Assembly: GCA_005773635.1 (NCBI GenBank)
Contig: SXHN01000010.1
Location: 1-44,396, forward strand
Reading direction: 5' to 3'
Length of the DNA: 44,396 nt
Origin: Actinomycetota bacterium
GTDB taxonomy: Bacteria > Actinomycetota > Acidimicrobiia > IMCC26256 > PALSA-610
The notes under the pieces: model-generated
What the model was told of the DNA's origin: nothing
Databases searched by the model: none
What the model saw: the letters and a program-made list of their open reading frames with translations, nothing else
Program-made: the position numbers and the translations under genes
In this document: one piece after another, positions 28,635 to 35,255 of the stretch
How the letters are laid out: the number at the start of each line of letters is the position of its first letter
Position numbering within the stretch: position 1 is the stretch's first letter

Positions 28635-28652
28635 CGGCTACGCCGACTTTTT
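28635..28652 (+). terminator. weak intrinsic terminator-like hairpin after the Liv fusion gene
   Basis: CGGC-TAC-GCCG followed by ACTTTTT lies 24 bp after the Liv fusion stop on the plus strand, inside the 3' end of the convergent binding protein gene. The stem is only 4 bp, so termination efficiency is doubtful. Confidence 0.3.
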
Positions 28653-30059
28653 GCACGCGCCGTTTGATGAATCACCAATCTCGGTAATCGGGTCCCACTC
28701 GCCGCCCTGATTGCCTAACGAGGAATCGAACGAAACCAGTCGGGCCGCGTCATCTGCCGAATACTTGCCTGTGCACAGCGACGCATAATCGGTAGCCACC
28801 AACTTGATCGGGCCAAAACTGTTCACGGCCGCGATCCAAGAATCATTGGTGAGGTTCCCGCCCGCGCGCTCCGCGATGACCTTGAACATCAATAGCTCGC
28901 CGCAGAAATCGGTGACCCCAACGTGGGTCTCCTCGCGATCGCCGTTCTTGTCATTCTTTGCTTCGCCCGGCCCGAGCAACGTTGTTCCCGATGCGTCCTC
29001 CCAAGCCTGTACGCATTCCTTCAGAAGGTCATTCTTGTTGTCCCAACGGTCGGTAACGCTCTGTCCGTCGGCACTCAACATGCCCTCATAGGGATTCGGT
29101 CTACCAGTACCTTTCAACGCATTGGTGAGATCGCGAGCTTGCGATGCTGCCGACGAGACATCAGTGATTATCAATGCATCCGGAAGCTCCTTTTTGATTT
29201 TCTCCACGAACTGCTTTGCAGATGCCTGATTGCCGGAGATGAACACTGCGCCGACGTCTTCAGACTTCCATCGTTCAACGAATCCGTCCATTTGGGCCTG
29301 CGCGGCCGAGGTATCGGTGCCGGTAATGCTGATCGTTGCGGCGGATCCGGTCTTAACTCCTAGTTTCTTGAGTAGCGGGAGCACGATCGGCTTGTTCACT
29401 TTGGCGGCGGTGTCCTGATCGCCCAACGTCGCAACGACAAGTCCGTCAAGCTTGCCCTCTTTGTATGCGAGGTTGATCGCAGTTGACGCGACGCCTTCCT
29501 TCGTGGAGTCCGGAGTCAAGAGAAGCCCAGGTATCGAATCATCGATCATGAATTGGTTGATCTCATGGCCGATCATGATCGTCGCTTTGTCCTTGGTAAG
29601 GCATTTCTGGCCGTCGCCGCTGAAGTCGATGAAGACTCCGAGGACTGCAAACACCTTGTCGTCGTCAGCCAACGATGTACACAGTGTCAGTGGGTCGGGT
29701 TGCCGTCCCGGGATTGGACAGTATTTCTTGAACACGGGTTCGATTTCACGACCTAGCACACCGCCGTTGTCATTGATGTAGCTAATCGACGCCTCTGCGA
29801 TTGCTTGCTGCGGGCCACGAGAACTATCAACGAAATCTTTGATGCAATCCTGATCGATGACCATGATTCCGACTTTGATTTTCTCTTTCGTCACGCCGCG
29901 AAAACTGTCGCTCAGTGGTTGCTGTTCAACGGAGGTAGTCGTTGCCAGACCTTGCTTGACGGGAGTTTCGGTCGTCACGGCTGCGGGATCAGAGGCACAC
30001 GCCGACAAGGCGATTACCGTTGCAAACGCACATCCGAGCAGCTTCGATGCTGGCTTCAT
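28638..30059 (-). CDS. branched-chain-type substrate-binding lipoprotein (LivK-like)
   Basis: The 473-residue precursor has a lipoprotein signal (MKPASKLLGCAFATVIALSAC, Cys21 as the lipidated residue), a Thr-rich linker and a type I periplasmic-binding fold (Peripla_BP_6): IKVGIMVIDQDC, AIAEASISYINDNGGVLGREIEPVFKKYC, GLVVATLGDQDTAAKVNKPIVLPLLKKLGV. The two cysteines at about 120-140 may form a disulfide. It is the obvious partner of the fused Liv permease encoded convergently. The ligand is unknown and need not be an amino acid. The ATG at 30059 has AGGGGG upstream; the longer reading to 30356 runs back through repeat copy B and into the next gene. Confidence 0.92.
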   Translation of the reverse strand: MKPASKLLGCAFATVIALSACASDPAAVTTETPVKQGLATTTSVEQQPLSDSFRGVTKEKIKVGIMVIDQDCIKDFVDSSRGPQQAIAEASISYINDNGGVLGREIEPVFKKYCPIPGRQPDPLTLCTSLADDDKVFAVLGVFIDFSGDGQKCLTKDKATIMIGHEINQFMIDDSIPGLLLTPDSTKEGVASTAINLAYKEGKLDGLVVATLGDQDTAAKVNKPIVLPLLKKLGVKTGSAATISITGTDTSAAQAQMDGFVERWKSEDVGAVFISGNQASAKQFVEKIKKELPDALIITDVSSAASQARDLTNALKGTGRPNPYEGMLSADGQSVTDRWDNKNDLLKECVQAWEDASGTTLLGPGEAKNDKNGDREETHVGVTDFCGELLMFKVIAERAGGNLTNDSWIAAVNSFGPIKLVATDYASLCTGKYSADDAARLVSFDSSLGNQGGEWDPITEIGDSSNGACKKSA

Positions 30060-31894: not shown

Positions 31895-32356
31895 CTATCT
31901 TGTGAGCCGCATTGGCGTGTGCCAAATATCGTCTTCAAGAAACCGCTCGCCGTCGACCACGAACCCGAATCGCTGGTACCAGGCTTCAAGACGGCTCTGA
32001 GCGTCGAGGACCAATTCGGCGGTTGGGAATCGTTCGACGGCTTCTTGCATCAGCGCAGCCGCGTGCCCGAGCGCGCGGTGCGACGCGGCAGTGACGACAC
32101 GCGACAGCTTCACTCCCCCATCGCGGCACGGAAACGCACGTAAATACGCCACAATCTGATCGCCGTCGCGAATCCAAGCATGGGCGTTGCCGGGCAGCAG
32201 ATCGCGGCCATCTATATCTTGAAATACACACGCCTGCTCGACGACGAAAATCTCGCTGCGCAATGCCAAGATTGCGTACAAATCACGCACCCGTATGGCA
32301 TCGAACTCAGACCAGGTGATCTCGACTCCGGTTTGCAATCCATCGGGTTCAGGCAC
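31895..32356 (-). CDS. GNAT family N-acetyltransferase, ElaA-like
   Basis: The 153-residue protein belongs to the ElaA branch of the GNAT superfamily, recognised by LYAILALRSEIFVVEQACVFQDIDGRDL (about 27-54). The acetyl-CoA binding segment SRVVTAASHRALGHAAALMQEAVE (about 85-108) is present, followed by a C-terminal FVVDGERFLEDDIWHTPMRL. ElaA function in bacteria is poorly known; acetyl transfer to a small amine or protein N terminus is expected. It starts 9 bp after the candidate selenoprotein stop, on the same strand. Confidence 0.9.
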   Translation of the reverse strand: MPEPDGLQTGVEITWSEFDAIRVRDLYAILALRSEIFVVEQACVFQDIDGRDLLPGNAHAWIRDGDQIVAYLRAFPCRDGGVKLSRVVTAASHRALGHAAALMQEAVERFPTAELVLDAQSRLEAWYQRFGFVVDGERFLEDDIWHTPMRLTR

Positions 32357-32365
32357 GGCCCTGTT

Positions 32366-33418
32366 CTAGTCGGTGGAGGACCGATCGCTGCGTAGCGCGG
32401 AGTTACCCCAGGCATAGCCAGGTGCTCCGTTGGCTCCCCAGTTCTCCACGTAGTCGAAGAAGGATTTCCCGAATGGGTCATCGCCTTCAAGCGGCAACGA
32501 GCCGCGATGGATCGTCCAGTCCCAGGGTGCAAGTGTGCGTGCCGTCTCGAAGTGAGGGCCTGCTGCATCGTCGTTGCCGACACGGTGAAGATGCGCGGCG
32601 ACTCGACGGTGAAGCCGCGCAAGTTCGTCGTCGCCAGTTGGCACGTTCTGCAGCTTGCCGACATCGGCGAGGGCCAGCGGCAACACGCCACCTTTCACCC
32701 AAGCGCGTAACTCTTCGTGGTGAAGACTCGAATCGATTCCGGTGAAGTCTTTAAACAGATCGTTCACGGGCGTTACATCAGGCGGTCGCACAATCCGATC
32801 GTCTTCATCGATCCAAACACAGCTCGGCACGTTGATGAACCCGTAACGCTCCGCAACGACGTGGTTGGGATCGATGACGCAGGGGTAGGTCGGATTCGCG
32901 GCTTCGACCCATTCTCGCGCCGCTGCGACTTCGTCGAGTGCGACCGCTACGACGGTAAATCCGAATGATTCAAGCTCTTCTTGCAGTGCCTGCCACCCGG
33001 GCAGGTCATATCGACAGCCTCACCAACTCGACCAAACAACCAAGACTTTTTTCTTGCGGCCGATCTTCGACATGGTCATTTCCTGCCCGTTGATATCGGC
33101 AAGCGTGAAATCAGGAGCAATTCGATTGTGCAGTTTGTCGCCGACTTCGGCGGTCGATTCGCCAAGTGCGGCGACGCCCGCGCCCGCGTCGATTACGACT
33201 GGGCGGCGAAGCGCCTTCGCAAACGCCGCCAAATCAACTGCATCATCTACTACCAATTCGTTGCGATCGCGGACCGGTACGCACACATCGCCTTGGCAGA
33301 GACCTTCGGCTTTGAGTTGCCAACCGGTTGCGTTCAACAGGTCGGCAACACCGATGCTGGAGCCACTATCGCTGTCAACGGTTGTGGCGCGCTCGCCATT
33401 CAAAATCGTCATTTTCAT
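32366..33418 (-). CDS. candidate selenoprotein: thioredoxin-fold (redoxin/TlpA-like) with in-frame UGA
   Basis: The reading frame from ATG 33418 is interrupted once, by UGA at 33022-33020 (residue 133), and then stays open to TAG at 32366 (350 residues with Sec). The UGA sits in W-S-S-W-U-G-C-R-Y-D-L-P, the place where redoxin-fold proteins carry a redox cysteine after Trp. Residues after it fit the fold: GFTVVAVALDE, ANPTYPCVIDP, RYGFINVPSCVWID (cis-Pro loop). Before it lie an N-terminal domain with CQGDVC (41-46) and APDFTLADINGQ, the usual redoxin start. The C-terminal 130 residues look helical and TPR-like. Frame conservation across the stop argues against a decayed gene. A SECIS-like hairpin follows the UGA. 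Alternatives are a point mutation or sequencing error of a Cys codon. No signal peptide is seen, so the product should be cytoplasmic. Confidence 0.75.
32989..33005 (-). promoter_or_regulatory. candidate bacterial SECIS element
   Basis: On the minus strand, 14 nt after the UGA, CCTGCC pairs perfectly with GGCAGG around the loop CGGGT. A stem of about this size directly downstream of the UGA, with a G in the first two loop positions about 20 nt from the UGA, is what SelB-dependent bacterial SECIS elements require. It lies within coding sequence, as bacterial SECIS elements do. Detected by eye only. Confidence 0.65.
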
Positions 33419-33445: not shown

Positions 33446-34624
33446 TTAGAGCAGCGTGCGGCGCATGACTGGGTAGAGATGTTTAAGTAAGAACAGCATC
33501 GCGAAGATCCCGGCGAACAGCACCACGGCTTTGCCGCTCCGGGCGACAATCCACTCGATCGAACGACTGAAACCTTTTCGGGCATCAGTCCAGGCCTTCG
33601 AGAGACCCGTTTCTGGCTTCGGCTCCGTTGCGATCTCGCCCGCTTCCGGCTTCTCGTGCAGGCTGACCGCAATCGACGCATACGAGGTTTGGTCGTTGAA
33701 GACATTGATCTGGCCCTGCAGGCGGTCAACCTCGGTCTGCACCAGGTTCAGTCGATCGCGGACCGCAAGAATATCGCCGATCGTGGTCGCCTTCGACAGC
33801 ACGAGCGATACTTGATCTCGTTCCGCAGTCGCCGCACGCAAGCGCGCCTCGACGTCGGCAAAGGCCGCAGTCACGTCGGCACTTGTGGCGGTGCGCGAGA
33901 CCACTCGGTTGCCAGATTTCTTCCCGGCAAGTGCGGTGACCGAAGCAAGGGTGCCTTCGAAACGCGCAACCGGCACACGGATCGTGGCGCTCGCTCGCGG
34001 CACTGTGCCGACCTCATCGGTCTTGCCATCGGCGAGGTACCCGCCATTCACCTTGGCAATGCGATTGATATCGTCGTAACGCTCCATCAATGTGGAACGG
34101 CGCAATTCCAAATCGACCGATCCGTTCTTTTGCAACTTCGGCTGATCCGTCAACGGCGAGGGTCCAGCAGACGCAGGCACCGTGTCTGCTGAGGTGGTAA
34201 TCGGCCCCGGCCCAGACTTGTAGTAGTTCGCCGTGGATTTTGCGGCGCTCGAGTCGGTGAGCGTGGTGTCACGCACGCCACGAGCTTCATTTGCTTTGCC
34301 GCCGCCGCCGTGAAAGTCGTCGCTAACGACTGATTCTTTCAGTTTGCTCATGCGCGTCGTGTATCCCGTCGAGCCAGTCAGCGCGACGAAGGTGCCGCCC
34401 ACCAGCGTGAGCACCGCGGCACTTGCTGCGATGAGTTTCCAGCGAGCTACGCCGCTGCGACGAACATCTACTCGATCATCGTCGTCGACCCCGCTCGCAA
34501 CCCGCCGCACTCCTGCTAGTTCGAGTATCGACTGCGGTCCGTCGGCTGGAGTTTCGATGGAATCGCCCAAGACGCCCAACATCGCTCCAACTTCGGCTTC
34601 GGTCATCGATCCTTGATCATTCAT
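33446..34624 (-). CDS. DUF4349 membrane protein, probable sigma-factor partner
   Basis: The 392-residue protein has a cytoplasmic N-terminal region of about 62 residues and a first transmembrane helix (LIAASAAVLTLVGGTFVAL, 64-82). An external Ser/Thr-rich stretch leads to a DUF4349 domain (about 165-390), which contains coiled-coil helices (FADVEARLRAATAERDQVSLVL; RDRLNLVQTEVDRLQGQI) and ends in a second transmembrane helix (VVLFAGIFAMLFLLKHLYPV). Its ATG overlaps the stop of an ECF sigma factor gene by 4 bp, so the N-terminal segment may act as an anti-sigma domain. That is inferred from gene order; no zinc-finger motif is visible in it. Confidence 0.88.
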   Translation of the reverse strand: MNDQGSMTEAEVGAMLGVLGDSIETPADGPQSILELAGVRRVASGVDDDDRVDVRRSGVARWKLIAASAAVLTLVGGTFVALTGSTGYTTRMSKLKESVVSDDFHGGGGKANEARGVRDTTLTDSSAAKSTANYYKSGPGPITTSADTVPASAGPSPLTDQPKLQKNGSVDLELRRSTLMERYDDINRIAKVNGGYLADGKTDEVGTVPRASATIRVPVARFEGTLASVTALAGKKSGNRVVSRTATSADVTAAFADVEARLRAATAERDQVSLVLSKATTIGDILAVRDRLNLVQTEVDRLQGQINVFNDQTSYASIAVSLHEKPEAGEIATEPKPETGLSKAWTDARKGFSRSIEWIVARSGKAVVLFAGIFAMLFLLKHLYPVMRRTLL

Positions 34625-35172
34625 TGCGCTGCTCCTAACAGTTCTTGCGCGAACCCAACCAAACTTGGATCACTCGCCAATCGCTTCCGCGCTTCATGAA
34701 GCCGAGATTTGACAGTGCCGGGCCGCCGGCGAATCGCAAGCGCGATCTCACGCTCCGATAAGCCAGTCCAATAGCGCAATACAAGCGGCACGCGCAGCGC
34801 CTCGGGCAATCGCGCAACCGCAATTGCAACTCCGTCAGCGAACATTCCGCGTTCAGCAGCCACCTCAGGGCCGTCGGCGGTGTCCGCTAGCCTTTCAGCA
34901 TCAACTTCATCGAAGCGGTCGCGCTCGCGATCTCTTCGTGGGATTTCCTGGCGCAGTTTCGAGTAACACGAGTTGACGATGACTCGATACAACCATGGCT
35001 CGCGACCATCATCGGGCGGAAGCGAGGCCCGAAATCGCCACGCGCGCAGGAACGCGTCCTGCACCGCTTCCCGAGCGTCGTCAGGGTTTCGACAGATCAT
35101 GAACGCCGTGCGATACGCCTTGGCGTAGCTCGCGTCGAGCCAGTCGTTGAGGTTTTGGAGGTCTCCTGTCAC
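34621..35172 (-). CDS. ECF RNA polymerase sigma factor
   Basis: The 183-residue protein has sigma region 2 (AYRTAFMICRNPDDAREAVQDAFLRAWRFRASLP, then REPWLYRVIVNSCYSKLRQ) and region 4 with a helix-turn-helix (LPEALRVPLVLRYWTGLSEREIALAIRRRPGTVKSRLHEARKRL). The start is taken as GTG 35172, because GGAG lies 5 bp upstream and the first family-like residues follow; sequence further upstream enters the neighbouring gene. It overlaps the DUF4349 gene by 4 bp. It belongs to the actinobacterial SigE/SigK-like class by pattern; promoters it controls are not known. Confidence 0.92.
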   Translation of the reverse strand: MTGDLQNLNDWLDASYAKAYRTAFMICRNPDDAREAVQDAFLRAWRFRASLPPDDGREPWLYRVIVNSCYSKLRQEIPRRDRERDRFDEVDAERLADTADGPEVAAERGMFADGVAIAVARLPEALRVPLVLRYWTGLSEREIALAIRRRPGTVKSRLHEARKRLASDPSLVGFAQELLGAAQ

Positions 35173-35255
35173 AGACACTCCGACGCTAGGCAGCACGATT
35201 CGGTTCGCGATTCCACCAAATTTTGACGCGCCCGAGGCCACACTGCCCAGCGTCG

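Follow-up and report, generated by a model that had tools for sequence, protein, structure and literature searches.

A predicted selenoprotein with a U-G-C redoxin site in an actinobacterial genome and its relation to the NF041054 family

UGC-containing Prx-like selenoproteins have been listed since 2008, from ocean metagenomes (PMC2398784, Table 2). That survey counted 46 Sec sequences and 855 Cys homologues there and found the group to be commoner in non-marine samples (PMC2398784). UGC-containing Prx-like or UGC-containing TlpA disulfide reductase family selenoproteins were listed again later (PMC9312934, PMC13188914). The nearest named family is represented by the NCBIfam equivalog model NF041054 (WAxxUGC_long), which describes a ResA-like WAxxUGC motif-containing protein. 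The locus studied here lies in the window, a stretch of 44,396 nucleotides. A sequence-only reading had presented the locus as a candidate new selenoprotein. As a kind it is not new, given the literature and the model just mentioned. Judged by the sequences, its UGA codon is very probably recoded as Sec, and the product falls into a subfamily that is sister to NF041054, among the UGC-containing Prx-like/TlpA selenoproteins. Features of the locus are compiled in the table.

Table. Features of the selenoprotein locus and its immediate neighbours (positions refer to the window)
Feature	Position	Strand	Remarks
GNAT acetyltransferase, downstream neighbour	31895..32356	minus, same strand	Pfam PF13673
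Selenoprotein gene	32366..33418	minus	350 aa, UGA read as Sec at residue 133
Helical TPR-like C-terminal tail, about residues 244-350	32369..32689	minus	all helices in model
ResA/TlpA-fold redoxin domain, about residues 96-243; Sec133, Cys135, N-V-P loop (Pro198)	32690..33133	minus	AhpC-TSA, fold matches
Predicted SECIS hairpin CCUGCC-CGGGU-GGCAGG	32989..33005	minus	6-bp stem, loop pair 24-27 also conserved
UGA codon, Sec133, W-S-S-W-U-G-C-R	33020..33022	minus	TGA/Cys exchange in homologues and Sec machinery of the genome
N-terminal domain, residues 1-95, invariant Cys41/Cys46 (C-x4-C)	33134..33418	minus	45 sequences, both subfamilies
DUF4349 protein, upstream neighbour	33446..34624	minus, same strand	Pfam PF14257, 129 bits

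The frame opens with ATG at 33418, closes with a TAG ending at 32366 and contains exactly one in-frame TGA, which is preceded by 132 codons and followed by 217, all of them intact. Without recoding, the locus consists of an ORF of 132 residues and an internal ORF of 154 residues, and standard annotation would call the gene truncated or split. The same protein ends are seen throughout the alignment of the 30-member subfamily. In these respects the sequence-only reading was accurate. It had joined two frames through a single UGA, leaving the strand unstated, and had described the 217 downstream codons as intact; all of them are open to the TAG. It was likewise exact about a perfect 6-bp stem (CCTGCC/GGCAGG) with the loop CGGGT, which starts precisely 14 nt past the UGA. 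Its two further proposals, that this hairpin acts as a SECIS element and that the UGA falls on the active-site position of a redoxin-fold motif beside Gly-Cys, are both strongly supported by the comparisons described below.

The folding energy of the hairpin was -11.1 kcal/mol. Folding of the single sequence was unconvincing as proof of a SECIS element, the z scores being unexceptional (about -1.6 for 27 nt and +0.7 for 48 nt), and covariation was used instead. Among 70 Sec sequences 98% of the cells were paired in the named structure, compared with 26-68% when one arm was slid as a control, and four of the seven pairs showed compensatory changes on both sides. The most telling pair, 24-27 in the loop, occurred as C-G (41 sequences), G-C (23) or A-U (6) and was never broken; both positions are third codon positions and synonymous. 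This pair was of the Watson-Crick type in all 68 distinct Sec sequences versus 13 of 35 Cys sequences (p 1e-13), and all seven pairs were kept in 59 of 68 versus 1 of 35 (p 9e-18); the exact p values are less firm because the sequences are related, but the repeated Sec/Cys switches are independent of them. The hairpin thus rises above chance because it is conserved and covaries across 70 homologues and is lost in Cys homologues. The Leu residue of the stem is encoded by CTG in 40 of 42 cases versus 33% elsewhere in these genes. The position flanked by the conserved Pro and Trp carries only Val or Gly in Sec forms, while it is often Ala in Cys forms. In one homologue (L118) three stem pairs had changed at once, and the encoded L-P-V-W-Q had become V-P-V-W-D.

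A SECIS covariance model scored the window gene at 61.7 bits. No second strong match to this model was found in the genome, the next best one reaching 21.3 bits and showing no open frame around its TGA; the match on the minus strand (L157) was inspected roughly. Rfam models gave no matches in the window at gathering thresholds. The SECIS loop of E. coli fdhF has a G-C pair that closes an exposed G-U, and the loop pair 24-27 seems to resemble it. With Sec and Cys exchanged repeatedly and two synonymous sites covarying strictly, the family offers a good natural experiment on the constraint that a SECIS element places on protein-coding sequence.

Homologues were compared at residue 133, where only U or C was found. 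In the wider tree of 109 homologues, 75 had UGA and 34 had Cys (TGC/TGT); the 80 nearest genomes yielded 50 homologues, with UGA in 43 and Cys in seven at this codon. TGA is retained by the nearest relatives, and TGC or TGT appeared in more distant lineages only. On the 109-protein tree at least 6 to 8 Sec/Cys exchanges were counted, at least 6 of them on well-supported branches. A scan of genomes from named organisms added Sec forms from Acidimicrobiia, Myxococcota (deposited as Deltaproteobacteria) and Chloroflexota, and Cys forms from Nocardioides species; its Sec/Cys ratio is not a census, since the scan patterns favour Cys forms. Of 296 genomes sampled from the class Acidimicrobiia, 90 carried one or both kinds of UGC redoxin, mostly with TGA. 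Selenoproteins had been called little described in this group, which is fair for the literature searched, where one paper named both the class and selenocysteine; the trait itself is common there. Plasmids yielded no relative that aligned over most of the protein. A metagenome-assembled contig labelled Bifidobacterium breve (L083) carries an Acidimicrobiia-type gene, and its organism name is very probably wrong.

The host genome (3.56 Mb in 125 contigs, 95% complete) contains the four genes of Sec decoding that the sequence-only reading had proposed to look for. In profile searches, selA (463.8 bits) was located directly before selB (335.1 bits), and selD (413.5 bits) was found elsewhere in the genome. 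selC (61.5 bits) lies on the same contig as selA and selB and was called tRNA-SeC with anticodon tca by ARAGORN. All four matches exceed the curated cut-offs. With these genes present and TGA kept in the closest relatives, both grounds for refutation that the sequence-only reading had named fail. Across the 80 nearest genomes, SelB and/or tRNA-Sec was detected in 33 of 34 genomes with a Sec form and in one of seven with a Cys form (Fisher p 1e-5), with a tRNA-Sec criterion stricter than the Rfam gathering score in that weak matches of 48-54 bits were set aside. The Sec-form exception (G019), without detected SelB or tRNA-Sec, is a genome of 70% completeness. The Cys-form exception (G049) encodes the SelB with the top score in the set (L005, L029), yet its redoxin is a Cys form and no tRNA-Sec was found in it; either this assembly is mixed or incomplete, or Sec is kept for another protein.

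These data bear on two other explanations of the UGA. If it were a genuine stop, or had arisen recently by nonsense mutation, the locus would be a truncated or decaying redoxin pseudogene, as the end of the standard-code frame at residue 133 and the unexceptional hairpin energy of the single sequence might suggest. The homologue set already refutes this reading: the same UGA is followed by intact frames in 75 homologues from three phyla, the SECIS element covaries, sel genes are present, and Cys forms replace the UGA where the machinery is missing. A pseudogene can hence be practically dismissed. Near-cognate tRNAs are known to read through UGA in bacteria, so the codon might instead be suppressed by a tRNA other than tRNA-Sec, such as one for Trp or Cys. 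Against this, Cys is the only replacement, it occurs at the catalytic position and tracks the presence or absence of SelB and tRNA-Sec, and only UGA forms conserve the SECIS-like hairpin, which makes such suppression highly improbable. On the favoured reading, the UGA at 33022-33020 would be decoded as Sec by the SelA, SelB, SelC and SelD proteins and RNA of the host, directed by the hairpin downstream.

The formate dehydrogenase alpha subunit was considered as the Sec protein of the host genome and rejected, as its active site (RVCHAPS) is the Cys form. The homologue in question is L152 (G000:C115:22508-24517). The SelD of the host (L071) likewise has Cys at this site (HGAGCACK). Neither of these two usual Sec proteins therefore accounts for the retention of Sec decoding in the genome.

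An AlphaFold2 model of the whole protein had a mean pLDDT of 94.3, and the N-terminal domain modelled alone reached the same value (94.3). This domain had no Pfam match and no convincing fold match in the PDB (the lowest Foldseek E was 0.89, and the highest VIA Z was 4.7, to usher N-terminal domains). The central domain matched AhpC-TSA (pfam00578; 64.2 bits, gathering threshold 26) and also Pfam Redoxin. Its top fold matches were 3gl3 (Z 15.5) and ResA (1st9; Z 14.3 over 135 residues, rmsd 2.3). A profile alignment placed Sec133 on the first active-site Cys of ResA and Cys135 on the second; one residue is deleted before the second Cys, so that C-x-x-C became U-x-C. TPR models matched several subfamily members. 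In a joint alignment of 45 proteins from both subfamilies, Cys41, Cys46, U133 and Cys135 were invariant when U and C were counted alike. The architecture had been called unusual; an N-terminal domain with a Cys pair and a C-terminal tail are in fact the norm throughout both subfamilies. As a crude test of location, hydropathy revealed neither a signal nor a membrane segment (maximal 19-residue mean of 0.45 within the first 60 residues), and the missing hydrophobic N-terminal segment suggests that the protein is cytoplasmic.

The product would accordingly be pictured as a cytoplasmic thiol(selenol)-disulfide oxidoreductase of the ResA/TlpA fold, in whose W-x-x-W-C-x-x-C site Sec took the place of the first Cys and one residue was lost. 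From this substitution and the shortened site we infer that Sec133 attacks a substrate disulfide and that Cys135 resolves the selenenylsulfide. That reductase chemistry, taken by itself, is the likelier course of the reaction, although the roles of the two residues are deduced from the site and from relatives. The selenoprotein might alternatively be a peroxiredoxin-like peroxidase, in which peroxides would be reduced by Sec133, leaving a selenenic acid for Cys135 to resolve. The Pfam matches to AhpC-TSA and Redoxin, the literature name 'Prx-like' (PMC2398784) and the occurrence of 1-Cys and AhpC peroxiredoxins among the weaker fold matches are in line with this. However, Sec aligns with the first Cys of the ResA CxxC site, the W-[AS]-x-W-U context is typical of TlpA/ResA, and the top fold matches are ResA/DsbE-like rather than Prx; moreover, the residue expected from the Prx motif (T/S)-x-x-C is Ala in many members. 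We thus regard a peroxidase as rather unlikely.

For a disulfide reductase, the Cys41/Cys46 pair would be the best candidate for an internal partner, either re-reducing the Sec site or passing electrons on; its function as a relay partner is put forward as a hypothesis. A broader proposal is that the subfamily forms a self-contained selenium disulfide relay, with electrons exchanged between the N-terminal C-x4-C domain and Sec133, and that such redoxins rather than formate dehydrogenase are a main reason why these free-living Acidimicrobiia keep Sec decoding. This proposal is speculative, and we consider it unlikely.

As a clue to the substrate the gene neighbourhood was uninformative, as no partner recurs beyond close relatives. 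The DUF4349 protein is found next to the selenoprotein gene in the same genus only, and the two genes are possibly co-transcribed. An ECF sigma factor and the DUF4349 protein are encoded upstream on the same strand (33446-35190), separated from the selenoprotein gene by 27 nt, and this gene order recurs within the genus alone. The GNAT gene also adjoins the selenoprotein gene in four relatives, all from the same genus or family, and not beyond. In one marine or sponge-associated lineage (L117, L120, L123, L127 and L140), a relative of the periplasmic binding protein of the window (28638-30050), about 23% identical to it, is encoded immediately upstream of the Sec redoxin.

With regard to NF041054, the window protein scored 238.3 bits against a cut-off of 300 bits, and the match in the genome was also below the cut-off (210.7 bits). 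All 30 subfamily members match the model; the best E-value among them was 3e-75, which implies that none comes near 300 bits. The clade of the window protein is separate from the NF041054 proteins above the cut-off (support 100/100), and both subfamilies occur side by side, both with UGA, in single genomes (G006, G045, G048, G002, G014, G017, G031 and G079). The score below the cut-off, the separate clade and the coexistence indicate that the window subfamily, by sequence comparison, is a sister of NF041054 rather than part of it, and it is unnamed in curated databases. Because the only curated model has a cut-off that the entire subfamily fails to reach, a model under a name of its own together with a SECIS profile would correct annotation across Acidimicrobiia, Myxococcota and Chloroflexota.

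Compared with the systems described so far, the subfamily shares with NF041054 the three-part architecture, the U-G-C site, the invariant N-terminal Cys pair and the SECIS element. It differs from that profile in the C-terminal tail, which aligns poorly (the alignment of the window protein covers residues 21-217 of 350). By description it is also like the UGC-containing Prx-like/TlpA selenoproteins, with which it has pfam00578, the UGC motif and many Cys homologues in common. The peroxiredoxin motif P-x-x-x-(T/S)-x-x-C/U is not matched: many members of the subfamily have Ala at U-3, and the window protein has no Pro at U-7. Its fold over residues 92-244 is that of ResA, TlpA and CcmG(DsbE) (1st9, 1jfu and 3gl3; Z 12-15.5), including the W-x-x-W-C context of the site and the conserved Pro loop. 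Unlike these proteins, it carries Sec in place of the first Cys in a U-x-C rather than a C-x-x-C arrangement, has an additional N-terminal domain and a helical tail, and, with hydropathy as a crude guide, would lack a membrane anchor or signal segment.
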